Assembly (NCBI GenBank): GCA_001771505.1
Contig: MEUA01000048.1
Span: 1,588-41,098 of the forward strand
Reading direction: 5' to 3'
DNA length: 39,511 bases
From: a candidate division WOR-1 bacterium RIFOXYB2_FULL_36_35
GTDB taxonomy: Bacteria; Margulisbacteria; WOR-1; XYC2-FULL-46-14; XYC2-FULL-37-10
Numbering within the stretch: position 1 is the first letter of the stretch; the number at the start of each line of letters is the position of its first letter. Under the pieces are notes generated by a model. It did no database searches. It was not told the DNA's origin and saw only the letters and a program-made list of their open reading frames with translations. The translations under genes were made by a program, and so were the position numbers. This document shows, piece by piece, positions 1,292 to 39,511 of the stretch.

Positions 1292-4123
1292 GTGGCAAGA
1301 ATTGATGTTGGCAGGTTCTCTGAAAAATATGCTGTGCGTGTAAGGAGCGATTCTGATTTACGTGGCGTTTTAAAGAGAAAAAGTTTACAAGGGCTAATCA
1401 AATTTTTTAGAGTTCAAGCTGCTCCTTCTATGCAAAACAGAGAAGATGCTTTAGCTGTTCGAAGCACAGATCGTAGTATAGATGTTTTGTTTGAAAGGGG
1501 AAATGGGAGCTCGATGCGGCGTACATTAAGCCAAATAGCAACCGCTAATAATCTTTATTTTCGTGGAGAACAAAATGTTTATATCCACGACTTGGTGACA
1601 TTATTTAATACTTTGCCTGTAGGAGCAAAAGCTTTATTAATAGATTGTGTTGCTGAAAATGATTCTAAAGCTATTTTATTTGATACGTTTTCCCCTCATG
1701 AAAAGAATATTGTTTTTGAAAAATGGCCGCGTTTGATAGATGGCGGTTTTTTGACATTAGACATGTATGAAGATCTGTTTCTTGCTTTAAATGCTAAAAA
1801 TAAAGGCAAATTTTTAGCTCATCTTGATCTAGTTTTTTTTGAAAATTTTTTGCATTATGTTGGAGATGTTGAAAAGACTTTAATATTACAAACTCTTGCC
1901 GAGAGTGGAGATTTTATAGATGATTTATCGCGTGAAAAACTACAATTCATATGGTTGTTTTTTTGCAGGCATACGCATTTCAATAGAATAATAAATGGAA
2001 GCTATCTGGGGGATGTAATTTATGAGAATCACAGATTGTGTTTAAGCGCTTTGGAATTTAGTCAGATGAAAGAATTGATAACTATTATGGAAAACGGTAG
2101 AAGATGTGCATTTTTGCGTAGGTTAAAAGGAGATAGAGAGGCTAAATCTTTTTTAGATTATTTAGCAGGCGAGCTTCTTTCTTCTTTGCCCGCACCTGAA
2201 AAAGATGTTGAAGATGGGTTTGGTCTTACGCAAAAAAGCGCTTATGACAGGTGGGCTGATTATTCAGGAAAGATTGATCGTGCCAGATTTATAAACTCTT
2301 TTTCAGGAAAAAAATCTTTTGGTTGTGTTGACCGTAACATGTTTGATCCTGATGACTGGGCTCTTTTAGTATCTGCGCGCTACGTGGAATCAGATGGAGA
2401 TGGAGGTTTTTTGGTGACTTCAAAAATTCCTGGAAGTTTTGGCGGAAGCGGCTTGAATTATATAAAAAGTTGGGATACTTTGATGAAAACAAGAGCTTTT
2501 GCAATGATGGGAGCAGAAGAGATTGGTCTTATTTCAAAAGAGAGGCTTGATGAAGTTTTGCCGCCGGAGGATAATATTCGGAAGAAATTTTTTATTGAAT
2601 CAGGATGGTCAACATCCCTTTTTTCTTATAATAATTTTGATGATATTAGAAGAGCGATAGATGATCCTTCTAGAGCCGACAGAATAATATCTTTATTAAA
2701 ATCTGTAAGAAGAGACAGCTATAGCAGTGTTATTGGGTTGTCCAGATATTTGTCCAGAGCTATTGGTGATCCATCTTCCAGCAGCGAAGCTGCCGAGGCA
2801 AGTAAAATACTTAATGTTATGAGAGATGTTTGCAAGAAAATAGAAGAGCAGCCGTTTGATGCAATAAAACTAAAATTTAAAAAAAGAAGTAAAAAGACTG
2901 GCCCTAAGAGAAAAACAACTTCTGTTGCGGATGATCCATGGAGCGCATTTGGGGCAGGTTATGGTGGTGGAGCAGGTTATGCAGGGTATTCTACGCAAGG
3001 GGGTAATTCTAGCCGCCGGTCTGATCAGAATGCGGGATATAATTCAGATCCGTGGTGGAACGGATTTACGCAAGGAAGATCCGGTTTTCATGATGATGGA
3101 TTTCATACTGATCCTTACAGTTCTGGAAGGCCAGAAAATAAAGGAAAAGAAGAACCTAAACTGGATAAACAAAAAGAGGAAAAGAGGGTTTTAAGAATTT
3201 TTAGTGGAATTTTTGATAAAGAATATGTATTGGATGTATTACAAACTTTTGGCAATAATGAGGTTCTAGCGTCTCTTTTGTCTGATGGGATATTACGCTT
3301 AAATTTTGATACTAATGGATATGTAATAGATCCTATTACATTTGACGGGACGAGAAGGAGTATAGAGGGTTTAATAAAAGATACGCTTAAATACAAAGGC
3401 TATAGAAATCCTGTTTATCTGGATGCGTGTGTGGATAATGTTTATTTGAGGTTGAAAAAGGCGATGGCATGCGCGCTTTTGGGGCTGGATTTTAATTCTA
3501 CTTTATATGAGGCAAATAACAGATATGCTCTTTTTATTGATCAGATTACAATTAATGATAGATATCATCAGGAAAGATTTGAAAAATTTTTAGAAGGCGC
3601 TTTTGTTGATAGTGTTTGGAGCGTTAAAATTTTCAGCACATATGAAAAGAAAGAAAGAGAAAGGATCCTTGGCGCTTTAAATGAAGGGAAATTTAATGAT
3701 AGATATCGAATTCATCTAAGTGAAACTTTCTCTTCTCTTGACCAGGGGATCGCTCAGTTACTAATGAGTAAGAATATATTGACATACATAAATGGGGACT
3801 ATTTTGTAAATCCTTCCTTTTTTAATGGTGATAGAGAGAGCATTGAATCTGTTTTAGCTTTGAGCTTACTGATGGTCAACATTCGAAATCCGGAATATAA
3901 AAAAGCTTCTATTGATAAAGTTTTTTTTATATTAAAAAAAGCGATGGCTTGTGTCCTTCTCGATCTGGACTATAATGTCTCTCTTGAAGAGGCAAGAAAA
4001 AAACATGAGCTTATTGTCAAGCAACTTAAACTTGAGGGGGACGATAACACCAGGTTTGAAAGGTTTTTAAAAGATGCTTTCACCTCTGAAGTTTGGAATG
4101 CCAGGCTAGTAGTGAGAACATAA
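1292..4123 (+). CDS. 943-aa orphan protein with Gly/Tyr-rich linker and duplicated C-terminal module
   Basis: Starts at GTG 1292, behind a good TTGGAGG ribosome site at 1277-1283. I recognise no known family. Residues 1-530 are mostly helical and soluble-looking. Residues about 540-630 form a low-complexity linker rich in Gly, Tyr, Asp, Pro and Trp, with recurring DPW/DPY motifs, followed by a charged stretch. The rest consists of two copies of a module of about 150 residues (about 633-785 and 790-943). They share the pattern LKKAMAC-LL-LD-N-L-EA in the middle and RFE-FL--AF---VW near the end. There is no signal peptide or membrane segment, so it is probably cytoplasmic. It ends just before a palindromic repeat and is convergent with the RNase H gene. 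The two-module architecture suggests a protein- or ligand-binding scaffold, but that is inference. Confidence 0.8.
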   Translation: MARIDVGRFSEKYAVRVRSDSDLRGVLKRKSLQGLIKFFRVQAAPSMQNREDALAVRSTDRSIDVLFERGNGSSMRRTLSQIATANNLYFRGEQNVYIHDLVTLFNTLPVGAKALLIDCVAENDSKAILFDTFSPHEKNIVFEKWPRLIDGGFLTLDMYEDLFLALNAKNKGKFLAHLDLVFFENFLHYVGDVEKTLILQTLAESGDFIDDLSREKLQFIWLFFCRHTHFNRIINGSYLGDVIYENHRLCLSALEFSQMKELITIMENGRRCAFLRRLKGDREAKSFLDYLAGELLSSLPAPEKDVEDGFGLTQKSAYDRWADYSGKIDRARFINSFSGKKSFGCVDRNMFDPDDWALLVSARYVESDGDGGFLVTSKIPGSFGGSGLNYIKSWDTLMKTRAFAMMGAEEIGLISKERLDEVLPPEDNIRKKFFIESGWSTSLFSYNNFDDIRRAIDDPSRADRIISLLKSVRRDSYSSVIGLSRYLSRAIGDPSSSSEAAEASKILNVMRDVCKKIEEQPFDAIKLKFKKRSKKTGPKRKTTSVADDPWSAFGAGYGGGAGYAGYSTQGGNSSRRSDQNAGYNSDPWWNGFTQGRSGFHDDGFHTDPYSSGRPENKGKEEPKLDKQKEEKRVLRIFSGIFDKEYVLDVLQTFGNNEVLASLLSDGILRLNFDTNGYVIDPITFDGTRRSIEGLIKDTLKYKGYRNPVYLDACVDNVYLRLKKAMACALLGLDFNSTLYEANNRYALFIDQITINDRYHQERFEKFLEGAFVDSVWSVKIFSTYEKKERERILGALNEGKFNDRYRIHLSETFSSLDQGIAQLLMSKNILTYINGDYFVNPSFFNGDRESIESVLALSLLMVNIRNPEYKKASIDKVFFILKKAMACVLLDLDYNVSLEEARKKHELIVKQLKLEGDDNTRFERFLKDAFTSEVWNARLVVRT
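3190..4113 (+). repeat. Intragenic duplication encoding two related ~150-aa modules
   Basis: Within the 943-aa gene, the segments from about 3190 to 3645 and from about 3660 to 4113 encode diverged copies of the same module. The strongest match is VYLRLKKAMACALLGLDFN against VFFILKKAMACVLLDLDYN. It is followed in both by an EA-rich helix and an RFE-FL---F---VW ending. DNA identity is patchy, so the duplication is old. Confidence 0.7.
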
Positions 4124-4160
4124 ATCCCGATTATGAACCCCGATTAGGATAATCGGGGTT
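4124..4160. repeat. Palindromic element copy 1, between convergent genes
   Basis: Perfect 11-bp arms AACCCCGATTA (4136-4146) and TAATCGGGGTT (4150-4160) with loop GGA, preceded by an extra half-site TCCCGATTAT. It lies between the stop of the 943-aa gene and the stop of the RNase H gene. It could serve as a two-way transcription end point, although a strong T-run is lacking. It belongs to the family also seen near 13390, 14224, 24177 and 31602-31942. Confidence 0.85.
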
Positions 4161-4164
4161 AAAA

Positions 4165-6412: not shown

Positions 6413-6467
6413 ATTAATCCCGAGTTTCACTACGATTATCATAATTCATGTGAAACTCGGGATTAAT
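6413..6467. repeat. Long inverted repeat with palindrome-family core
   Basis: Perfect 18-bp arms (6413-6430 and 6450-6467, beginning ATTAATCCCGAG) enclose a 19-nt loop containing CGATTATCATAAT. The same core occurs in the repeats at 20553 and 31901, so this may be a variant of the dispersed palindromic family. It sits in the divergent space between typA and the 881-aa gene and could also act as an operator or hairpin. Confidence 0.75.
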
Positions 6468-6484: not shown

Positions 6485-9130
6485 GTGATTGTATACTCAG
6501 TGAGAAAAAAGAGCTTAATTAAGCCGTTTTTGCCTAAAGCGTCTAACTGTTCTTTGAGGGATAAACATAAAGCTTTAGATTTGGTTGGATTGTTTCATGG
6601 ATTTTTAAATGTAAAAGATAGAAGGGTTTATGTGGGGTGGGGTGATTCTTTATCCTTGGATGGAAATAACACAGTCAGAGAATCTTATCTTGAAGCATCA
6701 AACGCATTATCTTGCATGGGTGGATTTCCAGCATCTGATGTTTTAGATTTTTTGTTGAGGATGAAACAGTCTTCAAAGGCTGTCAGAAAAAATCCTTGTT
6801 GGGCGGCGGGCTTTTTAGCTAACAGTTTAATTTTAAAAAAATGTTTTGAAGATAAATTAAAACAGGATGGGATTCCTTTTGATTTTAAGGCTTATGCAGG
6901 ATATGGCTTTGGGTTTTTATCTGCAATTGTTGCTTCAAAGGCCCTCTCCCTTGGAGATGGAGTTAAACTTGCTTATCATATAGCCAGCCTTATTTCCGAG
7001 AACAAAGGAAACTATGGTGTTGTAGCTCTTAAAGGCGAATGCCTTGATGATGTTGTGCATCGTTTAAATTCGGTATTTCCTAATAGTACGGAAGTCTTTG
7101 AGTCTTTGGAATGCGGAAATTTGGGGTTTTATAAGTTGTATGTTAAACAATCTATCCTTGATAAAGTGATGTCGTATATTTTTTGTAATTTTAATTGGGA
7201 ACAGATTGAAGCTTCAATCTTAGCGACAAACATAAAGTTTACCCCTCATTCAAATAGGATGTTGGAACTGCAGATAGCAGTCTCGAAATTCATAGATGAT
7301 TATATTCCAATTAAGCAACCCGAGGCTCCTGTTGTCTCTTGCTTTGGAAATGGTTTAATTTTTTCAAGAGAAGGGATTGTTTCTGATATTTTGGATATGG
7401 TTTCCAAACCTTTGAATCTTAGTCAATTTGCTTATGATGTTAAGTCCTTAACTCCTCGCAGCCTAATTGAATTTGGAAGAGAAAGTATAGCAGGCCGAAT
7501 TTTTTGGCAGACGGAAAGTAAATTGCCTTATTTACTTTATACTGATGAGCCTAGAAGTTTTGATGATTATTGTAAGGCAGCTTCCTATCAGTCTGTATTG
7601 AATTTTTTTTCCTTTCAGCCGCTTTTAGATAAAATAGTAAGATTAGTTCTTAATAAATGTGAAGAGCAAAATGACAAAAGAACCCCTGTTATAATTACTC
7701 TTGAAGGTGATTCAGGGTCTGGTAAGACTACACTTGCAGGTTTCTTATTAGAGTATTTTTCTAACATAGGGTTTAAAGTAATGGTCGACCAGTATGGTAA
7801 AGTCCCTACATTGGATATGTTTTTAAAGCCGAGTGAACTTAGGCACAAGCTGCGGGATAAAGTGATTGAGGATGGAAAACTTTATTATGACGAAATTGAT
7901 GTTTTTGATTGGAAGGCAATTGAGCAATTTTGTTGTGAAATTAATTTGTTTAGAGAGTCTGATAAAGAAGAGATTGTTATTTACGTGGAGGATGCTTATG
8001 ATCAAGCAACAAGAACAAGGGGCTTGCGTTATTTTTATTTAAATAAAAAAATGACGGTTTTTATTGAAGGGAAAAATGCCGGTCTTTGCAGAGGCTCAGA
8101 CATTAATTTTTTGATGATGAATAAAAATTCTTTTTTAAGGTTTATAGAAAGGTCCCAAGTTTTATCTTCGAAAGAATTACTGGTAAATAGACTATGGCAT
8201 CGCTTAGCGTTAACTCCGAGTTTTGAAAGATACCTTAAAGAGGGTAAAAGCAAAAAAATAGATGATGGTAGGTCTGATTACGTGGTGGATATTTCCTCTG
8301 ACATTCCTGATAATTGGGCGGTATATGATGGCAGAGAGACAAAGGTTGATAGGCTTACAAAATTGGAAGCCTTTGAATTTGAAGGGATGAGAGCCGAGTT
8401 TACTTATTATTTAGGGGTTAGAAGCAAGGAGTTAATGTCTTTTTTAGTTAAGGATGGGGAAGGGCGAATTGTTTTGGACTTCGAAGCCGGGGATGTATCG
8501 ATAAAGATTCCTGAATTGATAGGTAACGCAGTCAGAGCTTTTTTTTATGTCCCTGATGATGCAGGCTTTAACACTTTGCTTTCTTTAACCAGATCTTCAC
8601 AAGAGATATTGCAAGCGGCAGCTATTGATGTGCTAAATGAAAGGATAAGGCCTTTGCCTTTTGATCAAATGTACAGTTATTTTCATAGACAACCTTTTAA
8701 GGATAAAATTTTGGGGTTTTATCCTTCCTCTGAAGATAGGGGGGTAACATTAAATGTTTTATTTAGGGGAAAAGCCAAAGGCGATTCTCTGGAGATCGAA
8801 TATAATAAGGATAGTCGTTCCATCACTAAAGTTGTTGTTAAGCATTTTTTTGAAAAGACAGTTTTGTTTGATAGTTTAGTTTCAGATGATGGATCAAATC
8901 TTTCATCTATAAAATATCCTGTTTTGGGAGCCCATTTTTCTGTCGTCAATGAAAATCCTGTTATTAGGATCATCGTTAAAGACTCTGTATTGCCAAAATT
9001 AAAAAGATTATTTCAAAAAGAGACAAGAGGTTTTGTCGGAGGACTAAGTTGGGAGATTTATTCATTGACAGATGCTCTTTACAAAATAAACGGAGTTAAA
9101 GAGGTATTACTTATAAATGATAATACATAA
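6485..9130 (+). CDS. Fusion protein: dead FabD-like acyltransferase domain plus uridine-kinase-like P-loop domain
   Basis: An 881-aa protein starting at GTG 6485; the ribosome site is weak. Residues about 50-345 follow the malonyl-CoA:ACP transacylase (FabD/AT) pattern. The nucleophile-elbow region reads AGYGFGFLSAIVASKALSL where FabD has GHSLGE-type sequence, so the catalytic Ser is Gly141. The AFHS-type motif is kept as TPHSNRM (H255). The later PVVSCFGN and SLIEFGRESIAG match the PVVSN and VEVGPG motifs. Residues about 398-570 look like a uridine kinase/phosphoribulokinase P-loop domain: GDSGSGKTT (408-416), FDW and VFIEG. Residues 590-881 match nothing I know. The first domain is probably a binding module that has lost transferase activity, and the second may still phosphorylate a substrate. 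The domain calls rest on motif order read by eye. The gene stands alone, divergent from typA. Confidence 0.7.
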   Translation: MIVYSVRKKSLIKPFLPKASNCSLRDKHKALDLVGLFHGFLNVKDRRVYVGWGDSLSLDGNNTVRESYLEASNALSCMGGFPASDVLDFLLRMKQSSKAVRKNPCWAAGFLANSLILKKCFEDKLKQDGIPFDFKAYAGYGFGFLSAIVASKALSLGDGVKLAYHIASLISENKGNYGVVALKGECLDDVVHRLNSVFPNSTEVFESLECGNLGFYKLYVKQSILDKVMSYIFCNFNWEQIEASILATNIKFTPHSNRMLELQIAVSKFIDDYIPIKQPEAPVVSCFGNGLIFSREGIVSDILDMVSKPLNLSQFAYDVKSLTPRSLIEFGRESIAGRIFWQTESKLPYLLYTDEPRSFDDYCKAASYQSVLNFFSFQPLLDKIVRLVLNKCEEQNDKRTPVIITLEGDSGSGKTTLAGFLLEYFSNIGFKVMVDQYGKVPTLDMFLKPSELRHKLRDKVIEDGKLYYDEIDVFDWKAIEQFCCEINLFRESDKEEIVIYVEDAYDQATRTRGLRYFYLNKKMTVFIEGKNAGLCRGSDINFLMMNKNSFLRFIERSQVLSSKELLVNRLWHRLALTPSFERYLKEGKSKKIDDGRSDYVVDISSDIPDNWAVYDGRETKVDRLTKLEAFEFEGMRAEFTYYLGVRSKELMSFLVKDGEGRIVLDFEAGDVSIKIPELIGNAVRAFFYVPDDAGFNTLLSLTRSSQEILQAAAIDVLNERIRPLPFDQMYSYFHRQPFKDKILGFYPSSEDRGVTLNVLFRGKAKGDSLEIEYNKDSRSITKVVVKHFFEKTVLFDSLVSDDGSNLSSIKYPVLGAHFSVVNENPVIRIIVKDSVLPKLKRLFQKETRGFVGGLSWEIYSLTDALYKINGVKEVLLINDNT

Positions 9131-13389: not shown

Positions 13390-13424
13390 TGCGATTATTC
13401 ACCCCGATTAGGATAATCGGGGTT
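13390..13424. repeat. Palindromic element copy beside the MITE
   Basis: Arms ACCCCGATTA (13401-13410) and TAATCGGGGT (13414-13423) with loop GGA, preceded by GCGATTATTC. The leading half-site and palindrome match the copy embedded in the coding sequence at 14224-14261 almost base for base. A further half-like piece, GATTATGAATCGGGG, follows at about 13437. Confidence 0.85.
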
Positions 13425-13458
13425 CAGAGTTGAACTGATTATGAATCGGGGGTCATAT

Positions 13459-13577: not shown

Positions 13578-13628
13578 GTAATGATAATTTGTGTGAAACT
13601 TTTTTATTATTGGAGCGATAAAAAACAT

Positions 13629-14813
13629 ATGAAAATTCAAGGGATTATGAGGGTTGTTACAAGAAATTATGGTGAAAGGGAAATTTCAATAATTTTTAGT
13701 AGAGAAATTGGCAGATTAAATCGTGCAAGAAAGAGTGGAAGCTTGCATTTGTATGCTCCAAATATAAGGGATATTGCTTATAATAGCGTTACAAATATTT
13801 TATTAAATGCTAAAAGAGTTTTTATTTTTTTATCGTCTAAACTTGATGACTATAGTGTGGTAAAGGAGCAGCTTCCGGAATTAGATTTGCATGTAAAACA
13901 GATACTTTCTTCAATAAGCGAAAATTTTGTTGATAAAAATTCTAAAACACAAGATGTTAGAGAAATTGAAGACATTTTGATGTGTTATTTAAAAGCAAGA
14001 AAGTTGGTAAGCACAAGTAGTGTTTCTTTAGAAGGTGATTATCAATTTTTAGTGGTTTTTGTATATAAAAGATTACTTGAAAGATCTAGTGTTGATCAAA
14101 TAGAGAATATTTTAAAAGTTGTTGAGAGCAAAGTACCACGGAGAAAAACCGGTCAGACGGCTGAATTTGCTTATGCTTTTTTAGCTTTTTTATCTGAGTT
14201 AACTTATGCTTCAACTATGGATGATTCCCGATTATTCACCCCGATTAGGAAATCGGGGTTCATGCCCGAAAAAAAAGCAGGCGGCTTCTCTTCAAGTGAT
14301 TTTCCTGTAAATAATCTGGTTTTCTTGGCTGGTTCTTCAAAAGGAAAATTATTATCAGTTGATGTTGATATAGCTGATTTTAATTATGCTGTGATCTCTT
14401 TGACTTTTATATTTTGTTTTTTCGTAAAGCATTTGAAAGGATTCCAGGTGAGATTAGAAAGCGCTCTTGATGTTTTATTGGAGGAAAATCCTACCAAAAA
14501 GATACGTGAAAAACTGGAAACATTATGTCCTGAACAACTTTCAAGGTTATACCGTAGTTTAATTCAGTATATGAAAGTTAGTGATATAAGATTTAAAATT
14601 TCTCAAGGCAATTTGACTTTTAAACGAAGAGAAGAAATTGAAATTGCTGTTCTAGAGATTAAAAATGATAAGTTGACATCTCAAGAGGCTGAGTTTTTGG
14701 ATGATTCTTCCGCTGTTAAATATTTTTCACCGGAAGAGATCTTTGTTCTTCATAAAAAAATGGGGTTATTGATAGGGTTAAAAACAAGATCGATTTTACC
14801 TTTATTTGTTTAA
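13629..14813 (+). CDS. Orphan protein lying inside the V-ATPase gene cluster, in opposite orientation
   Basis: A 394-aa protein from ATG 13629, with GGAG 13 bases upstream. An in-frame ATG at 13581 would add 16 residues but has no ribosome site and abuts the MITE. It is mostly helical and lysine-rich, with one hydrophobic stretch (YAVISLTFIFCFFVKHL) that could be a membrane helix or a buried helix. I recognise no family. Residues about 200-213 (SRLFTPIRKSGFMP) are encoded by a copy of the dispersed palindromic element, which keeps the frame open. The gene separates subunit F from subunit A and overlaps the end of F convergently by 12 bp. This is a late arrival or rearrangement relative to the ancestral ATPase operon. 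Confidence 0.75.
   Translation: MKIQGIMRVVTRNYGEREISIIFSREIGRLNRARKSGSLHLYAPNIRDIAYNSVTNILLNAKRVFIFLSSKLDDYSVVKEQLPELDLHVKQILSSISENFVDKNSKTQDVREIEDILMCYLKARKLVSTSSVSLEGDYQFLVVFVYKRLLERSSVDQIENILKVVESKVPRRKTGQTAEFAYAFLAFLSELTYASTMDDSRLFTPIRKSGFMPEKKAGGFSSSDFPVNNLVFLAGSSKGKLLSVDVDIADFNYAVISLTFIFCFFVKHLKGFQVRLESALDVLLEENPTKKIREKLETLCPEQLSRLYRSLIQYMKVSDIRFKISQGNLTFKRREEIEIAVLEIKNDKLTSQEAEFLDDSSAVKYFSPEEIFVLHKKMGLLIGLKTRSILPLFV
14224..14261 (+). repeat. Palindromic element inserted in frame within a coding sequence
   Basis: Arms ACCCCGATT (14238-14246) and AATCGGGGT (14251-14259), with the extra half-site TCCCGATTATTC in front and TTCA after. It matches the intergenic copy at 13390-13424 except for a missing TA in the loop region. 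The reading frame passes through without a stop. This is reminiscent of Rickettsia palindromic elements found inside proteins. Confidence 0.85.
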
Positions 14814-22148: not shown

Positions 22149-24170
22149 ATGGAAAATATAACTGGGGCAAACATCAATCCGGGCCGAACTGTCGAAAGCG
22201 CTAAAAAAGGAACAACTATTAATCTTTCTGATCGCCTAAGCAAAAAAGGCAAAAAAGAGTTGTTGACAAAAATTAGAGAGAAAGTGAGAAATGTTTCTGA
22301 AAAACAGCTTAAGGACTTATTGGAAAAGATTGATACTGTTTTTGAGGGGAATGTTTTGTTGTGGGCTGTTTCTTTTGTTGTAAAAGAACAAATTTCTGGG
22401 GCTCAGTTGGAGAATTTTATTTTCAATGCTGTTGAAATTATATCAAAAATGAAGCCAGAAGTTGTTTGTGAAAAAGCTTCTGTTGATTATAAACATAGAG
22501 GTTGTGCTGTTTCTAATCAATTTATAAATGTAGTCAGGCAAGAGTCTTTAACAGCGCTTTTTGAAAGTAATTTAAATCCAATTAATCCTGATTATGCGAA
22601 AAAGGTACTCTCTTTTAGACTTGGGGATCACGATCCTATGCCTATTATGAAATTTTTAAAGAGAATACCTGAGAACCTTGCTCCCCTTTTATATTATGCA
22701 ATTAATAATATAGATAGCATTGATGCCACTGTGGAATATTATCTAATTTATAATATTTGTAAGCTTGGAGTGGAAATGGCTGGGAGAGCAGTTGATTTAG
22801 GTGCGGACTTAACAGGAATGTTCAATCAAAGTTTGGATATCTCAGTTGTTCAGACTGATATAGAAAAATTATATTTAAGTTTAGGAATAACTTTATCTTT
22901 GAAGGATATTGAAAAAATAATTGATGCGCTTAAGTTTTTGGTCCCGGAAGATAAAACATTGAGAGAATATTTTGAATTGATTATAAATAAATTACCTTCA
23001 GGTATGACTGTTTTTTTGTTTGTAGAATTTCTTAGAAATTTTTCGGATCAGCGGACAAGATTAAAATATGATCTAGCAGATGATGATAAGTTTAAAAAAT
23101 TTATTTCTTCTTGTATGGATGATTTTTGTGGAATTCCCGAGTATGATTCTGCTGATAAATATATTCAAAAGTATAAAAGCATTTTAGAAGCAAAATTAAA
23201 TTGCGCCCTTCCGATTGAAGACATAATAAAAACAGCTGCTGATGATAATAAAAAAATTAATCTTTCGTTTAGCTCTGCTGCCGACTCTAGAGGGATGTTG
23301 TCCCTTTCTGCAGAAGCAAAAGTTCCTTTTAGTGTTATATCTTTGAAAATTGGAGGAGGAATGACATTAATTAATTCTCCTATTTTTAATAATTCTGACG
23401 CGGGGACAATTGATAGGCCGAACCTTTCAGGATCAGGTTATAATTTAAGTGCGGCTGTTAACAGAAAACAATCTTTCGGGGACTTTGGATCAAGTCTTTT
23501 TGCTCTGGGAGGATCATATGATTCCCAAGAAATGCATTATTCTTTATCTTATAAAGATGAAGAGACGGGATTGCCAATAGATTATGAACGAGATATGGCG
23601 GCTGCAACCACTAAGCTTACCTTTGGATTTCAGCATGAAAAAATATTCAGATGGAATAAAAATAACAAGCCTTCGGCGCTTGCCCCTTCGTTTTCACTGT
23701 ATGTTAATCCGTATTTAAGCAGGTCATTTTTAGGTGTTAATACAGAGGTTACACTTAAAGGGGCCTTTGGCAGCTTTGCCCCTTTTATCTCTTTTAAGTT
23801 TTCGAGAGATGCCGACGGAGCAAAAATAAATGAAGCTTATTTGAACCAAGGAGAAGAGTTGTTGGCCAATTCGTCTGATTTGGATAGTCCGTATATTGAA
23901 CTTTCTGTTTCAGGTGGAAATGTTTTTTCTATTAATGATTCGCATAGGCTGGCTTTGAACGGAAATTTTGAAAAAACAATCTATTCTAACGATACTGGTT
24001 ATGTCTCCAGTTCTTTCTTTTTGGCTTATGTTCCTCGAGTTACTTCTAAGTTTGGGACTGTAGATTTTATGATTGGCGGTGGACTAACTCTTAGCAAACA
24101 GCCTGAATCAAAAGCAGCTAGCGGTTTTAATGTTTTAACAGGTTTTACTTACACTCCGCCTATAAAATAA
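22149..24170 (+). CDS. Orphan protein with helical N-terminus and beta-barrel-like C-terminus
   Basis: A 673-aa protein from ATG 22149, with a GAGGGG stretch 13 bases upstream. Residues 1-370 are helical. From about 375 to the end the sequence alternates hydrophobic and polar residues in strand-sized blocks with glycine and aromatic residues (for example VISLKIGGGMTL, FALGGSYDSQ, SFSLYVNPYLS, FGTVDFMIGGGLTL). This is typical of an outer-membrane beta-barrel or autotransporter-like domain. Unusually there is no N-terminal signal peptide; the start MENITGANINPG is polar. Either the true start differs, export is unconventional, or the strands form a soluble beta structure. I recognise no family. 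It is followed directly by a strong palindromic hairpin. Confidence 0.75.
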   Translation: MENITGANINPGRTVESAKKGTTINLSDRLSKKGKKELLTKIREKVRNVSEKQLKDLLEKIDTVFEGNVLLWAVSFVVKEQISGAQLENFIFNAVEIISKMKPEVVCEKASVDYKHRGCAVSNQFINVVRQESLTALFESNLNPINPDYAKKVLSFRLGDHDPMPIMKFLKRIPENLAPLLYYAINNIDSIDATVEYYLIYNICKLGVEMAGRAVDLGADLTGMFNQSLDISVVQTDIEKLYLSLGITLSLKDIEKIIDALKFLVPEDKTLREYFELIINKLPSGMTVFLFVEFLRNFSDQRTRLKYDLADDDKFKKFISSCMDDFCGIPEYDSADKYIQKYKSILEAKLNCALPIEDIIKTAADDNKKINLSFSSAADSRGMLSLSAEAKVPFSVISLKIGGGMTLINSPIFNNSDAGTIDRPNLSGSGYNLSAAVNRKQSFGDFGSSLFALGGSYDSQEMHYSLSYKDEETGLPIDYERDMAAATTKLTFGFQHEKIFRWNKNNKPSALAPSFSLYVNPYLSRSFLGVNTEVTLKGAFGSFAPFISFKFSRDADGAKINEAYLNQGEELLANSSDLDSPYIELSVSGGNVFSINDSHRLALNGNFEKTIYSNDTGYVSSSFFLAYVPRVTSKFGTVDFMIGGGLTLSKQPESKAASGFNVLTGFTYTPPIK

Positions 24171-24176
24171 CATAGG

Positions 24177-24207
24177 GTTAACCCCGATTATCCTAATCGG
24201 GGTTAAC
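24177..24207. repeat. Palindromic element copy, perfect 14-bp arms; possible terminator
   Basis: Arms GTTAACCCCGATTA (24177-24190) and TAATCGGGGTTAAC (24194-24207) with a 3-nt loop TCC, followed by the T-rich TTTCAATTTTTG. It is the most perfect member of the dispersed family and could end transcription of the 673-aa gene. It is 19 bp upstream of the promoter of the PPC gene. Confidence 0.85.
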
Positions 24208-31538: not shown

Positions 31539-31680
31539 GGGACTGTTGCGTAATGACAGTTTTTGCGATTTGTCATCCCCGCGAAAGCGGAGATCCATCT
31601 TAACCCCGATTATAAATCGGGGTTGTTTTCTGAGAAATAGATTCCCGTTTTCACGGGAATGACCATTTTGCAACAGTCCC
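31539..31680. mobile_element. MITE-like element, 142 bp, with nested palindrome and 5-bp target duplication
   Basis: Terminal inverted repeats GGGACTGTTGC (31539-31549) and GCAACAGTCCC (31670-31680) extend to about 17 bp with two mismatches. TTAGT flanks both sides (31534-31538 and 31681-31685), a perfect target duplication that includes the pyrG stop codon. Inside are the two hairpins seen in the copy at 13459. It has no coding capacity, so it is non-autonomous; no transposase is in the window. Confidence 0.85.
31602..31624. repeat. 23-bp palindrome nested in the MITE
   Basis: Arms AACCCCGATT and AATCGGGGTT with loop ATA. It is absent from the other MITE copy, where CTT joins GTTTTC directly (about 13520). 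The insertion boundaries are therefore exact, with TT at the junction as a possible 2-bp duplication. Confidence 0.9.
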
Positions 31681-31753
31681 TTAGTGTCAGACGGAAAAAA
31701 GTCAATTTATTATAGAACCCTTCTCTTCACAGCCGTTAAGTAATTTCTTATAA

Positions 31754-31844
31754 TTAACCCCGATTAGGGAATCAGGGTTCATACCTGGGGGAAACTTTCA
31801 ACACTCTGCTAGAATTCTGTTCGTCTATGAATAATCGGGGTTAA
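31754..31844. repeat. Split palindromic element with 65-bp centre
   Basis: Outer arms TTAACCCCGATTA (31754-31766) and TAATCGGGGTTAA (31832-31844) are perfect 13-bp inverted repeats. The left end also forms an imperfect palindrome with ATCAGGGTT. The centre is unique sequence. It looks like two elements, or one element opened by an insertion. Confidence 0.65.
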
Positions 31845-31900
31845 GTTATAAAATTGTTGCTAGTGCCACCTCAGACTTACCTGTTTTGCAACATTGTGTT

Positions 31901-31942
31901 TTAACCCCGATTATCATAATCTGGGTGAATAATCGGGGTTAA
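31901..31942. repeat. Full three-half-site palindromic element
   Basis: Arms TTAACCCCGATTAT (31901-31914) and ATAATCGGGGTTAA (31929-31942) enclose a third half-site (CATAATCTGGGTGA). Its reverse complement matches the order of the copies at 4124, 13390 and 14224, so this is probably the complete 42-bp form of the element. Confidence 0.8.
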
Positions 31943-32228: not shown

Positions 32229-33854
32229 ATGACGGAATCGATTAGCGCTAGTCGAATGTTAATGGGACATATTGTACCTGTTGATCCGAAACAGGCCGAA
32301 AAACCAGATAGAAACGGAGCAAAGACAGGAAAGAAGCCTCCTGCAAAAGCAGAGGCAGATAAATCTTTGTCCGGCAAAGTTTTGGATGGAGTTGGCGCTG
32401 TAATACAATATATGTTTATTCCCGCTGCAGGAGTAGTTCCTAGTTGTACATCTCAAGCTCCAAGCTGTTTAATGTTTAATCCCGATATTACAGATGGGAA
32501 AGGAAATACAATAACCGGAGGTTTGTCTTCGGAATTAAGCACTAAAGGAGTGGCTGAAATCCCTTTTCGTTTTGAAATAGTTTCGAAAATAAGAAATGAT
32601 GGCAGCGGGTGGGGGAGTGTCAAAGTCAATGGCGGAATTTCAATCGGACTTCATGATGGATATGTCGGCTTTAATAAAGACGGAGATTTTTATGTGAAGG
32701 AAGATGGAGGGCCTTTTACAAGTTGTAATACTGCGGTTGACGATAACAACCTAGATGATTTAGGGCAATGTTCTCCTTTTGTTCTCCAAGATGGAGATGA
32801 AAAGCCAACTTATATTTCCGGGGCGTATCCTGCAGCTATTCCTTTAATGGTTGATGGCTATCCTGTTTTAACATCGCTCGATGGCAGCGGCAATGCTACA
32901 TATAGACCAATACAAGTAACTGCTCCAGAGCTTGGTATTTTTAATTCCAATGTATTCAAGCTATCTGCAGATAACGGAGGAATTCACTTTGTAGTTTTTG
33001 GATCAAAAATAGAAAACGAAATGATTGTTACTGCTTACTATTATATAAAGGGGTTTGTTTCAGTAGATGATTTTACGAATCCGGATACCGTGCTTCTTGG
33101 AGAAGATTTAGCTGATGTTTTAAAAAAAGATGGCGGAGCTATTTATTCGGCTTTGATTGAAGAAGGATATATTAGCAATGACGGAACAGATGAAATAACA
33201 ACAAAATTTACGGGTGATTTTGAAGATTTTTCTCTGCCAAGTGAACAATATAGTTTTTCGCAAGATCAGATACAGGCAGCCTTTATTGTTATGCGATATG
33301 CCTTGGAAAATGGCAATATTGTTGGTCCCTTTGATATCAATGAAAATGATATAAATACTGAAGATACTTTTAATGCTTATTATAAAACAGATGATAAAGG
33401 GGTTCTTCTGTCAGAAGATAGTCATACAGAAGTAGCTGCGCATATTTATTCTTATACTAAAGATCCTAAATATACTTCCAAAGATATCTATTATGGAAAT
33501 GAAGATAAGGGATTAACCGGGGTGCTTGTAAATAACGGAGTTATCAACCCTGAAAGCATCGCAACAATTGTTGTCCCTCTTAATTACGAGCTTACTTTAA
33601 GAAATAGTGAGACAGGCAGAATACAAGAAGTAAAAGGCAAAATTGAAAAAGGGACACAAGGCATTTCATTTATATTTGATTCTGCTCTTTTAGATAGCGC
33701 GGAAGGTTCTGACTATACAATAATTGACGGATCCATTAGATTGGAATTGGCTAAGAATGCCCCTAAAGGGTTTTCTTTAAATGTTTCAGTTAATGGAATA
33801 ATGGTTGAAGTTGAGCAGAGAGAAGAAGAAGGAGTTTGTGAAAAGCAACAATAG
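32229..33854 (+). CDS. Acidic orphan protein co-transcribed with the giant secreted protein
   Basis: A 541-aa protein with a strong ribosome site (AGGGGGAG, 9 bases before ATG 32229). The first 50 residues are polar and Lys/Pro-rich, then comes one moderately hydrophobic segment (VLDGVGAVIQYMFIPAAGVV). From residue about 75 the protein is acidic and beta-rich, with DGKGNTITGG and NNLDDLG-type turns and four cysteines in the first 180 residues. There is no classical signal peptide. I recognise no family. The giant IPT/TIG gene starts 20 bp downstream, so the two probably form an operon and may act together at the cell surface; that is inference. Confidence 0.75.
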   Translation: MTESISASRMLMGHIVPVDPKQAEKPDRNGAKTGKKPPAKAEADKSLSGKVLDGVGAVIQYMFIPAAGVVPSCTSQAPSCLMFNPDITDGKGNTITGGLSSELSTKGVAEIPFRFEIVSKIRNDGSGWGSVKVNGGISIGLHDGYVGFNKDGDFYVKEDGGPFTSCNTAVDDNNLDDLGQCSPFVLQDGDEKPTYISGAYPAAIPLMVDGYPVLTSLDGSGNATYRPIQVTAPELGIFNSNVFKLSADNGGIHFVVFGSKIENEMIVTAYYYIKGFVSVDDFTNPDTVLLGEDLADVLKKDGGAIYSALIEEGYISNDGTDEITTKFTGDFEDFSLPSEQYSFSQDQIQAAFIVMRYALENGNIVGPFDINENDINTEDTFNAYYKTDDKGVLLSEDSHTEVAAHIYSYTKDPKYTSKDIYYGNEDKGLTGVLVNNGVINPESIATIVVPLNYELTLRNSETGRIQEVKGKIEKGTQGISFIFDSALLDSAEGSDYTIIDGSIRLELAKNAPKGFSLNVSVNGIMVEVEQREEEGVCEKQQ

Positions 33855-33873
33855 ATTGGGGGTACATGAACTT

Positions 33874-36800
33874 ATGAAGAGATTAATTGGTTTTTTACGG
33901 GTTGTAATTTTTATTTTATTTTTCTTTGTTTCTGTAGCAACATATGCAGCAGGGATAGAGTGGCCTGTCAATTCTGTTCTTTCTCATAATTCTCAGTTAG
34001 GAGGGAAATATTTATATTCTCCCGACAATGTGAATGCGGCTATAAATATTTATGACATATCGGGAGGATCAAGTTTTAACCCTGTAAATAATAAGATTGG
34101 ACAGATAACTTCCGGTCAGTTGGGTGGTGGAGTTATATCTGCAATGGCGTTAAGCCTTGATGGAAATACTCTTTATGCTTTGGCAACCAATGGTAATGTA
34201 AAGATGTTCGGTCCTACGGGAACACTTAAAGGGACGATAAACGGCACTACGTTTGTTGCTCCGACTCAGATGGCGATGTCTTCTGATGGCAAGAGACTTT
34301 ATGTTTTGGATCAGGCATTTAAAGGTGTAAAGATTATAGATACCAAAACAAACCAGATAATTTCTTCTATTTCAGTTGATCAGAATCCGGATGTTAAGGG
34401 TGTAAGCGCTACGTATCTTTTCGGGATAGCAATAAGTCCTGACAATACAATGCTTGCCGTTACAAATAAGCAGGCTTATACTTCAGATGGATCAGGATCT
34501 GCTGTCTATATATATAACATAGTACATTCTGCTGACGGGACTATTTCTTATCAATATAATAGAAGTCTTACTTATGGTTCTATCATTAATTATCCGACAC
34601 ATGTTGTTTTTTCTCCTGACAGTAAGACTTTGTACGTGCGGGTTGATCAGACCTCAGGCTCATTTAGAGACATTGTAATGTTTAATGTTACTAATAATTT
34701 TAGCGGGTCTGCTCTCTCTTTAGAAAACGGGAATTATCAGGATCCAAACAATGTACATGGAGAGATTTTAGGGTTGTCCGTGAATGGTTTGTACATATAC
34801 GCAACACATAGAAACAGTTCAGGGACAAATATAGTTTATAGAATATCTACAGTAAATAGCGATGGGACCCCCAGAAATTTATCTAACTGGACATACAATT
34901 CTGCTATTGACGGAAGCTTTACGTTGCCTTTCGTCACTTTTCCCGCGGATGGACTCTCTGTAGTACCTGACGGTTCTTATTTGTGGTTTACATGTTCTGA
35001 ACCTGCTAGCGCCATGTACAATGCTATGTTTTCATCTTATACAGGATATAGGGATGCTTCAGGGGCTTTAGTGAATAAAGTTCCCGAAGCTCCTTCTATA
35101 GTACATCCTAATTCTGTAAGCGGAGATAATCTTGATAATTATGCAGGGGTGGCTCAATGGGCTCACGGTTATGATGATAGTCCTGCCGGTAATTATAAAT
35201 ATGAAATTTATTATAAACAATCAGGGAGTTCTACTTGGACATCATTAGAAGGGTTTACTCCTAACACTACGACTTCGTTGGCGACTTTATCCGCAGGAGT
35301 CTACTATAATTTGAGAATCAGAATGTATGATGGTGTGAGCTGGTGGAGCCCTTATACATATTCAGAACCGTTTAAAAAACCAAATGCTACTATTTCTACA
35401 ATAGAAATTGATAAAAACAGAGACCCTAATGTTGAGAATTTTACAGAATATAACGCTTCAACAAATATAGGGTATATTTATGACGCTATAAAAATAAAAG
35501 GGACAGGGTTTGGCTCTCTTTCCAGTCCTTTTTCCTATAATGGCACAGATTATCAGGTAATCTTCAGAACAGCTACAAAAGATTATATATTACCTGCATA
35601 TATTGATGAAAATTCTGATGGTCAGTACAATGACGGAGAGGAGCATGTTATCTCCAATTGGCAGGATAGTGAACTTTCATTTGTTATGCCGGAAGAGTTT
35701 AAGGATAAATCTGCCGTATATCCCCAGCAGTTTCAACTAGTTGTTAAATCATTTGGTGTTGAAGGGGCTATTTACAGTTTTAATGTCGGGCCTGTTGTAA
35801 CCGACATGAATAGATTCGGATATCCTGGACAACAGGTAGATATTTATGGGGCCGGTTTTGGCGCGACTAAAGGGACAAGCTCTGTTATTTTTAACAGTAA
35901 TGCAACCGCGCAGACTTCATATTGGGATAACGGGCATATAACATGTACTGTGCCAAGTGGCGTGGTAAACGGTAGAGTGAAGGTAAAGGTTAATAATGTA
36001 GATACTTCCATAAACTATGCTGGAGCGCCTCTTGGTGACGGGCAATACAATCTGCCTGTAACTTTTGAAGTTCTTCCTATTCCACAGCCTACTTATACCT
36101 CAGTAAAAGTCTGGGATATAGATTATGATAGCAACGGTAATAAACTGGCGGATTCAAACGAATATAAGGAGCAGACTTGGGGATATGATTCTGACGCGAT
36201 TATAATTAAAGGCAACAATTTTGGGAGTGCGGGAACAGTTAAACTTGGCACAAGAACTATTCCAAGTGAGGAAGTTTACTGGGCAACCGATGGAACACAA
36301 ATATCTTTTTCGATTCCATCGACTGCTGTTATGGGACATCCTGGAATAACCATAACAAATACTTTTGGCAGCCTTACAATCCCTTTTGATATACACCCAA
36401 AAATTGATAATAATGGAATATCTCCTGCTTCAGGGCTTCCTGGCACACGAATATATATTTCAGGGACAGGTTTTAATGATTCGACTTTGATTAATTCAAT
36501 TGACTTTTTAATAGACGGGAATATTGCGGCTTCAGTCGCTGGTGTTTTGGAAGGTGGCAAGATTCATGCTGATGTTCCGAATCTTTTAATTAATACTTAT
36601 AATGTTAGAATTGCTTCTGAAGATTTTGACGGCATTTACAGCAACGATAACCAGACTTTTACATTGGTCAACCCAAAAATCACAGGGTTTGCTGTTGATA
36701 CTGATCCTCATCCTGTTTATGACACATGGAAGGATTTAGGGCCTCAGGATTCGGTTGCTGTTAACGACAATATAAAAATTAAGGGGTCAGGTTTTGGGTC

Positions 36801-39511
36801 CCCGGGAGATGGCGCAGGGGATACTGCTTCTTATAATGTTACATTTAATGGTATTAAAATAAGAGATGATGATGTTAATAATACAGGTTATCAGATTTAT
36901 TCATGGAATGACAATGAGATAAAACTTGGCATACCGCACAAAGCAGGGAATGATTATATTAAATCGGGAAATAATGTTGTTGTTGTAACAGCCGGTGATA
37001 TTACAGCTACAAGTTCTATAAAAATCAGACCTACTATTGACAGATATCTTCCTGATGACGCGACTGCTCATAAAGGGAGTTCTGTTGTATTGGTAGGGAC
37101 GGCGCTGGAAAGTCTCTCTTTAAGTCAGGTTGTACATTTTGGCGACAGTTTAATTGGAAATGGTGTTATAGCAAGAGCAGGAGAGACACCTGCCGATGTT
37201 GATGGATCTGATGTTACTGAAACCCTTACTTTTAATGCTCCTGATTTACCTCCTGCTTCTTATAGTGTTTCTGTTGAAGGGGAAGGGGTCTTTAGCAATA
37301 AAGTAGATTTTAATATTGTTGCGCCTGTTGTATCACAAATTCAGGTTGCTGATGATCTGTTTGGTTCTACCCCTTTACAATTTTCTGGAAATGAAGCTGC
37401 CTATGGGTATGTTTACAGCAGTCTTAAAATTACAGGAGAGGCTTTTGGGGAGGAGGGGACTGTAAAAATCGGAAATATAATTCTTGAGCCTAACAAGAAT
37501 GTCTGGTGGGATGCGAACAAAAATGAGATATCAGTTGCCGTTCCAAGGAATATAGTGACCGATTATGTTGATGCCGGTGACAAATTATCTATTATAAACG
37601 CTTATGGCGAACCGATTAATGCTTCATTTACTGTAAGGCCAAAAATTTCATCTCTTTCAAAACAGGCTGCTGCAGTGGGGGGGTCTTTTTCGATAAAGGG
37701 ATATGCTTTGGGAGATGCCGGGGATGGTGATGTAGTCAAATTTTTGAATGATACGCTTGGCAATGAATTTATGGATGTTGTTGTAACCTCAAGAGATTCG
37801 GATAACGACATAATAAATGTGATACTTGATGAAGCTGTATTTGCATCAAAAACTGGTATATATACTATAGAAGTAGATAGAAACAGCCAGGTAAGTAACA
37901 GTATGCAGTTTAATATTTTGCCAAAGTCTGTTCCTATTATAGAAAATTTTCAGGTTGATACCAATCCTAATCCTGACATAGAAAGCTTTAAAGATGTTAC
38001 TGATGGGGTAGTTATTTATGATACGGTGAAAATATCAGGAGAAAGTTTTGGCGCTGTTGCTGACGGATCACGCGCTACTGCGTCTAACAATATTACTATA
38101 AACGGTTTGATGATACCTGATGTTTTGGGTGATCCCCTTAATCCTTCCGATCCGGGAAATCAGGGATATCAAGTCTATTCTTGGAATGACACGGAAATTG
38201 TTGTTGGCATTCCGCGCAGTGTAACTACTATTGACGGGGTTAAATATATTAATGCCGGAGTTCACGAGATAAAAGTTACCGCTAACGGGGATGTTTCTAA
38301 CAGCGCTAATTTAACTATAAAACCGACGATAAATTATGTAAATCCCAAAAATGGTTATCCCGGGCTAACAACTGTTACTATTAGTGGGGAAGCTTTGGTT
38401 TCAGTGGATGCGGGGTCTATTACAAAGTTATATTTTGGCGGAGTTAACCTTGGAACAGTTACAGTCAACCGAGGAATTGGAAATTCTATGGATGGGCGGG
38501 GAGCAAAAGATTTTATAACAGTAAAACTCCCTTCTGATCTTCCTGTTGGTTTATATTCAGTCTCGGCAGAGGTTGGATCTCTTGTCAGTGTAAGTAAAAA
38601 TGATGAAAATTTATTTAATGTTTTGGCGATTCCTGTTCCGGCTATTAGCTCAATACAGGTAAAAGATGATACTTGGAATAATAAATATGTCACTCAATCA
38701 TTAGATAGCGCGTACGGCTATGTTTATAGCACAGTTTCAGTCGAGGGAAATGGATTTGATACTTCACCTGGATCTAGAATTGTTTTAAACCTTAGTAATG
38801 GGGATATTGTTGATCTTCCTTCTGATTATATATATGCCTGGGAGAACAAACTTATAGAGTTTGGGGTGCCAAGAGTTATTACTATCCAGCCTCAAGACGG
38901 GCCGTCTCAGGTTTTTTATATATCTCCAGGGAGCGCCACAATAGAATTGATAAATCGTTTTGGCAATAAAGCTGATCTTATATTTAATATACATCCTAAA
39001 ATATATAGTGTTTCAAAAAGCTCTGTAAAAGCAGGGGATACTATGGATGTGAGTGGAGTTGGTTTTGGAGACCCTACGAATACTGTTGATATCACTTTCT
39101 GGGATGCAACTGGAACAAAAGTAGGCCTTGTGGAGATGTCGAACGGTTTTGTAAGGACTGCAGACAATGGCGATATTTCTGGAAATGATGCTATAAAAAA
39201 CATTGTTGTACCTGATCTTGGAGCATCAGGGACATATACAGTAAAAGTTTCCGCGTACGATGACGCTCCTCCCTACAGCAATGGAAAAGATGTGACATTT
39301 ACCGCGACGCCAGGTCCACAAACACCGTCAGTGACAAAGATTGAAGTAAGAAAAGATGAGAATTCGGCTTATGTGACTACAAGTGAAGGATATCTAGGAT
39401 ATACGGTAAAGATGAGCGGAACAGGGTTTGAAGGGAACTATAATAATCAAGGCAAGGTAATGATAGATGGCGTAGAGATGCCGATATATAGTTGGAATGA
39501 ACCGACAGGAA
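33874..39511 (+). CDS. Giant secreted beta-propeller/FN3/IPT-TIG protein (3' end outside window)
   Basis: The frame is open from ATG 33874 to the window end, at least 1879 residues. A signal peptide (LIGFLRVVIFILFFFVSVAT, then YAAG) gives export. Residues about 30-400 carry repeated blade motifs of a YVTN/lactonase-like beta-propeller (SSDGKRLYVLD, SPDNTMLAVTN, SPDSKTLYVRV, VPDGSYLWFT). Residues about 403-504 look like a fibronectin type III domain. From about 505 onward are tandem IPT/TIG domains marked by I-I-G-GFG (IKIKGTGFGS, IKIKGSGFGS, VKISGESFGA, VSVEGNGFDT). It is probably a surface adhesin or matrix-binding protein. The ribosome site GGGGG at 33858-33862 is 11 bases away. A three-codon ORF (ATG 33866) ends with its TGA overlapping this ATG, so coupling is possible. 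Confidence 0.88.
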   Translation, partial: MKRLIGFLRVVIFILFFFVSVATYAAGIEWPVNSVLSHNSQLGGKYLYSPDNVNAAINIYDISGGSSFNPVNNKIGQITSGQLGGGVISAMALSLDGNTLYALATNGNVKMFGPTGTLKGTINGTTFVAPTQMAMSSDGKRLYVLDQAFKGVKIIDTKTNQIISSISVDQNPDVKGVSATYLFGIAISPDNTMLAVTNKQAYTSDGSGSAVYIYNIVHSADGTISYQYNRSLTYGSIINYPTHVVFSPDSKTLYVRVDQTSGSFRDIVMFNVTNNFSGSALSLENGNYQDPNNVHGEILGLSVNGLYIYATHRNSSGTNIVYRISTVNSDGTPRNLSNWTYNSAIDGSFTLPFVTFPADGLSVVPDGSYLWFTCSEPASAMYNAMFSSYTGYRDASGALVNKVPEAPSIVHPNSVSGDNLDNYAGVAQWAHGYDDSPAGNYKYEIYYKQSGSSTWTSLEGFTPNTTTSLATLSAGVYYNLRIRMYDGVSWWSPYTYSEPFKKPNATISTIEIDKNRDPNVENFTEYNASTNIGYIYDAIKIKGTGFGSLSSPFSYNGTDYQVIFRTATKDYILPAYIDENSDGQYNDGEEHVISNWQDSELSFVMPEEFKDKSAVYPQQFQLVVKSFGVEGAIYSFNVGPVVTDMNRFGYPGQQVDIYGAGFGATKGTSSVIFNSNATAQTSYWDNGHITCTVPSGVVNGRVKVKVNNVDTSINYAGAPLGDGQYNLPVTFEVLPIPQPTYTSVKVWDIDYDSNGNKLADSNEYKEQTWGYDSDAIIIKGNNFGSAGTVKLGTRTIPSEEVYWATDGTQISFSIPSTAVMGHPGITITNTFGSLTIPFDIHPKIDNNGISPASGLPGTRIYISGTGFNDSTLINSIDFLIDGNIAASVAGVLEGGKIHADVPNLLINTYNVRIASEDFDGIYSNDNQTFTLVNPKITGFAVDTDPHPVYDTWKDLGPQDSVAVNDNIKIKGSGFGSPGDGAGDTASYNVTFNGIKIRDDDVNNTGYQIYSWNDNEIKLGIPHKAGNDYIKSGNNVVVVTAGDITATSSIKIRPTIDRYLPDDATAHKGSSVVLVGTALESLSLSQVVHFGDSLIGNGVIARAGETPADVDGSDVTETLTFNAPDLPPASYSVSVEGEGVFSNKVDFNIVAPVVSQIQVADDLFGSTPLQFSGNEAAYGYVYSSLKITGEAFGEEGTVKIGNIILEPNKNVWWDANKNEISVAVPRNIVTDYVDAGDKLSIINAYGEPINASFTVRPKISSLSKQAAAVGGSFSIKGYALGDAGDGDVVKFLNDTLGNEFMDVVVTSRDSDNDIINVILDEAVFASKTGIYTIEVDRNSQVSNSMQFNILPKSVPIIENFQVDTNPNPDIESFKDVTDGVVIYDTVKISGESFGAVADGSRATASNNITINGLMIPDVLGDPLNPSDPGNQGYQVYSWNDTEIVVGIPRSVTTIDGVKYINAGVHEIKVTANGDVSNSANLTIKPTINYVNPKNGYPGLTTVTISGEALVSVDAGSITKLYFGGVNLGTVTVNRGIGNSMDGRGAKDFITVKLPSDLPVGLYSVSAEVGSLVSVSKNDENLFNVLAIPVPAISSIQVKDDTWNNKYVTQSLDSAYGYVYSTVSVEGNGFDTSPGSRIVLNLSNGDIVDLPSDYIYAWENKLIEFGVPRVITIQPQDGPSQVFYISPGSATIELINRFGNKADLIFNIHPKIYSVSKSSVKAGDTMDVSGVGFGDPTNTVDITFWDATGTKVGLVEMSNGFVRTADNGDISGNDAIKNIVVPDLGASGTYTVKVSAYDDAPPYSNGKDVTFTATPGPQTPSVTKIEVRKDENSAYVTTSEGYLGYTVKMSGTGFEGNYNNQGKVMIDGVEMPIYSWNEPTG
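35395..39511 (+). repeat. Intragenic tandem IPT/TIG supermodules (~200-230 aa period)
   Basis: The units begin near 35402, 36097, 36691, 37340, 37953, 38653 and 39340. Each opens with a hydrophobic-acidic strand (IEIDKNRDP, VKVWDIDYD, FAVDTDPHP, IQVADD, FQVDTNPNP, IQVKDD, IEVRKD), followed by I-I-G--FG and later a P-KI/PTI hinge leading into a second, shorter IPT domain. Two subtypes partly alternate. The array continues past the window. Confidence 0.75.

Follow-up and report, generated by a model that had tools for sequence, protein, structure and literature searches.

The closest described systems are the malonyl-CoA:ACP transacylase FabD (TIGR00128, PF00698), the P-loop kinases of the uridine kinase/phosphoribulokinase/pantothenate kinase I superfamily (PF00485; PDB 1rz3, 6pwz, 4bft), and the plant protein TTM1, in which a uridine-kinase-like and a CYTH domain stand in tandem (PDB 7z67). 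To our knowledge TTM1 has no FabD part. Catalytically dead acyltransferase domains have scarcely been described outside polyketide synthases, and the literature that we searched contained none.

Here we describe a protein of the candidate division WOR-1 bacterium RIFOXYB2_FULL_36_35 that joins a FabD-fold domain with a degenerate active site to a P-loop kinase domain and a further C-terminal region. The window, that is, the whole stretch of DNA analysed, comprises 39,511 nucleotides of contig MEUA01000048.1. Among named genomes its V-ATPase A subunit is most similar to that of WOR-1 RIFOXYB2_FULL_45_9 (69% identity), which indicates, without proving, membership of the WOR-1/Margulisbacteria lineage. 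The pairing of domains is unusual and amounts to a new combination of known folds.

An intact gene among genes of the opposite strand

The gene begins with GTG and lacks a clear Shine-Dalgarno sequence. Its composition is close to that of its neighbors (GC 0.35, GC3 0.29), with the three parts of the gene much alike. It is flanked by typA and rnhA on one side and by a V-type ATPase operon on the other, all on the opposite strand; as the sole plus-strand gene among these it has no operon partner, and no biosynthetic genes lie beside it at this locus.

Table 1. Coordinates of the fusion gene, its domains and motifs, and associated features of the window.
Feature	Position	Strand	Remarks
881-aa fusion protein	6485..9130	+	Intact ORF, GTG start, open over 881 codons
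FabD-fold (acyltransferase-like) domain, degenerate active site	6572..7579	+	aa ~30-365
Gly141 (GGC) replacing nucleophile Ser	6905..6907	+	GYGFG, 139-143
His255 (CAT), catalytic-type His kept	7247..7249	+	TPHSNRM
Uridine-kinase/PRK/PanK-superfamily P-loop kinase domain	7610..8299	+	aa ~376-605
Walker A	7706..7732	+	GDSGSGKTT, 408-416
Asp444, general-base Asp position of Udk/UCK	7814..7816	+	In LDMFL; kept in both kinase relatives
Family motif DAYDQAT	7991..8011	+	503-509; aligns with UCK VYDFxTH
C-terminal region	8300..9127	+	aa 606-881; unmatched among Pfam, NCBIfam and PDB sequences
Palindrome with perfect 18-bp stem	6413..6467	.	Between divergent typA and fusion gene
REP-like repeat sites	4121-4162, 6413-6467, 13398-13426, 14222-14262, 24178-24206, 31600-31942		
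Further orphan ORFs	1292-4123, 13581-14813, 22149-24170, 32229-33854	+	No Pfam match above cut-off

The palindrome just upstream of the gene (RNA fold z -5.3) is a possible operator or cis element. It is also a variant of a REP-like palindromic repeat present elsewhere in the window: ATAATCGGGGTTAA and its complement have 27 matches with up to three mismatches, compared to 5.3 expected. Copies are mainly intergenic and frequently close to orphan genes. The four further orphan ORFs in the window (410 to 943 aa) are dispersed between conserved genes; by eye, the C-terminal part of the first (1292-4123) apparently comprises two copies of a unit of ~150 aa. Positions 33805-39510 encode the first part of a giant protein (>1900 aa) that extends past the end of the window. 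It has repeated IPT/TIG-like and beta-propeller-like stretches, as judged by eye, and is probably a surface protein.

No orthologue of the fusion was found in 95 relatives or in 74 genomes of the phylum, two others of the same family included. Pattern scans of GTDB, and searches of viral contigs, phages and plasmids, likewise gave none; the GTDB and viral scans required near-exact matches of eight residues and reach close relatives only. A sister genome (G002) carries a different orphan beside typA, with typA and the V-ATPase genes on separate contigs. Given this, and given that no orthologue was found, the fusion looks either young or very rare.

The N-terminal domain is homologous to FabD

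Direct scans leave the fold undecided, because the matches were short and below threshold at most. Pfam returned no FabD match for the N-terminal domain, NCBIfam returned MdcH over aa 135-184 (E 0.0012), and the nearest FabD among PDB sequences (5ypv) matched with an E-value of 0.33. More is gained from an HMM built from the FabD proteins of 30 relatives: the elbow segment scores above all 1000 shuffles, and a second, collinear segment reaches the level of ~1%.

A tblastn search of 7.3 Gb of plasmid records matched aa 40-308 to a Streptomyces plasmid acyltransferase annotated as 'ACP S-malonyltransferase' (E 3e-10) and to a homologue on a plasmid of Acinetobacter larvae (E 4e-4). Aligned to this acyltransferase (AT) family the domain scores 79 bits, against 29 bits for the best of 1000 shuffles. 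The Streptomyces protein is itself FabD-like (TIGR00128, E 5.6e-12; PDB MCATs, 4e-8), and a profile of the AT family that includes the window domain aligns with FabD over 287 columns (hhalign E 1.9e-14). An AlphaFold2 model of the domain (pLDDT 75, pTM 0.75) matches the FabD structures 2cuy, 6u0j and 1mla at 1e-13 to 1e-11; because the underlying alignment contained FabD rows and residues 1-39 were left out, we treat the model as supporting evidence only.

Homology to FabD across the whole domain is thus found by tblastn, BLASTP, hhalign and the structure model, and on sequence comparison the assignment of aa ~30-365 is beyond chance. The original prediction of a FabD fold, made from sequence motifs, is therefore borne out, although the domain is longer than the segment proposed there for profile searches (50-345): LVGLFHGFL (33-41) forms beta-strand 1, which a naive FabD alignment places ten residues further downstream, and the domain accordingly extends over ~30-365.

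Stand-alone second FabD-like proteins are encoded in two other genomes of the same class (L057:791-1645, minus strand, in G022; L058:237-1193, minus strand, in G019). They are 27% identical to one another and both lack PGQGSQ; the former keeps GHSLG and the latter has ASSFG. We considered them as relatives and rejected them: they are absent among the matches listed for the window domain.

The active site has lost its nucleophile and two further positions

The FabD-fold domain has no nucleophilic Ser in a GxSxG motif; the elbow holds Gly141 at that position, as had been predicted. The retained His, also predicted, lies in an HxxxM spacing that is preserved (HSNRM here, HSARM or HxxLM in relatives). 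In place of the GQGSQ loop stands NVKDR, without the oxyanion-hole Gln; a GWGDS segment was rejected as a candidate for the loop. The position of the Arg that binds the malonyl carboxylate is occupied by Ile. One sequencing error could account for Gly141, but would not account for the other changed positions. A separate, normal and intact FabD is encoded elsewhere in the same genome (G000:C24).

The replacement of Ser by Gly is not conserved in homologues. The Streptomyces and Acinetobacter relatives keep both Ser and His (GESFG, AHS), which makes Gly141 a change in the fusion protein and not a trait of the family. This weakens the original prediction, which had named Ser at the elbow of homologues as a refuting observation. 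Gln and Arg are likewise absent from these relatives. For this reason the AT family appears, on its sequences, to have abandoned malonyl transfer already, with the fusion protein having lost the nucleophile on top.

The kinase core is kept in two divergent relatives

The original prediction had named a uridine-kinase-like P-loop domain; motifs, structure model and relatives confirm a P-loop kinase and place it in the uridine-kinase/PRK superfamily. The domain alone matches PF00485 with an E-value of 2e-4, slightly short of the gathering threshold (21.5 bits, compared to a cut-off of 22). The top Foldseek matches of a model of aa 376-605 are uridine kinase 1rz3, PanK, UCK2 and glycerate kinase; the match to type I pantothenate kinase (4bft, E 3e-6) is on a par with that of uridine kinase.

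Two relatives of the kinase domain occur in the same class. One is a stand-alone protein of 267 aa in the sister genome G002 (27% identity); the other is the middle part of a multidomain orphan of at least 615 aa in G012 (L173:2-1846, minus strand), which has other flanking regions and an exact copy of DAYDQAT, and whose 3' end lies beyond the stretch analysed. No FabD part was seen in the stand-alone protein, or in the G012 protein over the 615 or more residues covered. Apart from the three family members, all that a kinase profile picked up in 383 genomes were P-loop look-alikes. PADLOC also yielded P-loop matches only, and a role in a defense system was rejected.

At an identity of ~25%, the three kinases nevertheless have the P-loop, LDxFL, [YF]DxxT and an Arg of the RFIER region in common without exception, a constancy that implies that catalysis is under selection. 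Where UCK has its base-binding His, all three carry Arg or Lys, so a pyrimidine nucleoside is probably not the substrate, and the domain scores just 19 bits against the uridine kinase model TIGR00235 (cut-off 220). The description 'nucleoside-kinase-like' is accordingly right as to superfamily and too specific as to substrate: pantothenate and glycerate kinases match about equally well. From its motifs the domain is probably an active small-molecule kinase other than a uridine kinase. The label of a pseudo-FabD plus a uridine-kinase-like domain is fair if it denotes folds, but not if it denotes enzymes.

For the C-terminal region the expectation of no known match held in the three libraries searched. 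Its structure model has a pLDDT near 30 and was set aside. A CYTH identity was considered and rejected, the ExExK motif being absent.

What might the fusion protein do?

From these features we infer kinase activity, a class of substrate, ligand binding by the FabD-like part and a coupling of the two. The reading that we tentatively prefer is of a soluble protein of several domains, with a FabD-fold module for binding or scaffolding attached to a working small-molecule kinase. The FabD-fold domain, incapable of Ser-based transacylation, would serve the kinase as this module, while the kinase would most likely phosphorylate a small molecule other than uridine, with ATP as the donor. The FabD-like part would probably hold the substrate, or else a partner protein that perhaps bears a phosphopantetheine arm, and probably position or regulate the kinase step. 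Against this reading stand the lack of an operon partner and the fact that the fusion is known from a single copy, so that conservation of the pseudoenzyme, and selection for its altered active site or for the domain combination, would be conjecture.

If the FabD-like cavity grips an acyl-phosphopantetheine (CoA or carrier protein) while the kinase phosphorylates a hydroxyl of the acyl group, then the protein would be a tailoring enzyme that tethers its substrate for a small biosynthetic step. The nearest AT relatives are large multidomain proteins in Streptomyces plasmid gene clusters, beside transporters and gamma-butyrolactone-type regulators, and the kinase fold is near that of pantothenate kinase, both of which fit. 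The neighbors at the window locus (typA, rnhA, V-ATPase genes) are nevertheless not biosynthetic, relatives of the kinase exist without a FabD part, and loss of the Ser means that no acyl group could be loaded covalently. We consider this unlikely, if conceivable.

Alternatively, the FabD-like part may be the decaying remnant of an ancestral, active AT-kinase fusion that lost its Ser by drift, with selection acting on the kinase and C-terminal parts only. Retention of Ser in the relatives is consistent with decay, as is the fact that no orthologue is available in which the Gly form is conserved. But all 881 codons are open and the composition is normal; moreover, several core motifs of FabD survive, which favors a folded domain in use. 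Decay of the domain therefore strikes us as improbable.

The original prediction went further in proposing a sensor of acyl-CoA or acyl-ACP, in which the inactive transacylase, on binding its ligand, would turn the kinase on or off. The fold, the retained His and the lost nucleophile are compatible with a module that only binds, and the genuine FabD elsewhere in the genome leaves the window domain free for another role. However, the domain has also lost the GQGSQ loop and the Arg that would bind malonyl groups, and we find a sensor of this kind doubtful. Equally doubtful is a new type of metabolic regulator or tailoring enzyme whose FabD-derived pseudoenzyme part would bind acyl-CoA or acyl-carrier-protein and either control the fused small-molecule kinase or hand it its cargo. 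A regulatory NTPase, STAND/AAA-like and with an unusual module at its N-terminus, is very improbable: nSTAND3 scores best in Pfam when only the P-loop segment is considered but spans just 31 residues, whereas the fold and motifs of the full domain fit uridine kinase/PanK.

If the FabD-like domain of our preferred reading does bind CoA or ACP, then the fusion would tie fatty-acid or CoA status directly to phosphorylation. The kinase domain, joined to differing partners within one small candidate phylum, also offers a concrete case of domain shuffling among uncultured bacteria.

Comparison with known systems

The nearest relatives of aa 40-365 are the N-terminal AT domains of two plasmid-encoded proteins of Streptomyces sp. 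NBC_00388 and NBC_00503 (WP_328322391.1, WP_330301354.1; 1240-1257 aa), with 25% identity over 359 aligned columns (BLASTP) and local correspondences such as AHSARM to PHSNRM and DGVKIA to DGVKLA. On Acinetobacter larvae pRW1 the copy of the AT protein is split by a frameshift or wrongly annotated. Unlike the window protein, these proteins keep the Ser of GESFG, have no match to a P-loop kinase, and continue into a different remainder of ~850 aa with a gene of ~500 aa downstream. On the Streptomyces plasmids the 1240-aa AT-containing protein and the ~500-aa protein form a two-gene unit (L234:7893-13229, L235:7884-13213); the Acinetobacter larvae plasmid (L236/L237) encodes a version of the large protein with ~40% identity, which also lies next to a gene of ~500 aa. 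The unit is essentially without Pfam matches. When four sequences were compared, the kinase weakly matched the remainder of the Streptomyces protein (E 0.005), which we judged to be chance, and an APH-like motif in that remainder (GDTNTENIKI...FLDPRAIGY), seen by eye only, had support from no library.

With TTM1 the window protein has in common a uridine-kinase-like domain and an extra C-terminal domain, and there is a weak Foldseek match; the difference lies in the CYTH motif ExExK, absent from the C-terminal region here. With the PF00485 superfamily the kinase shares the fold, the P-loop, the position of the general-base Asp, the YDxxT segment and an EG strand; it differs in the Arg at the position of the base-binding His, and has two relatives, both in the same class. 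With FabD itself the N-terminal domain shares the fold, collinearity over the whole domain and the His; it differs in having lost the equivalents of Ser92, Gln11 and Arg117 (E. coli numbering), and in being fused to a kinase.
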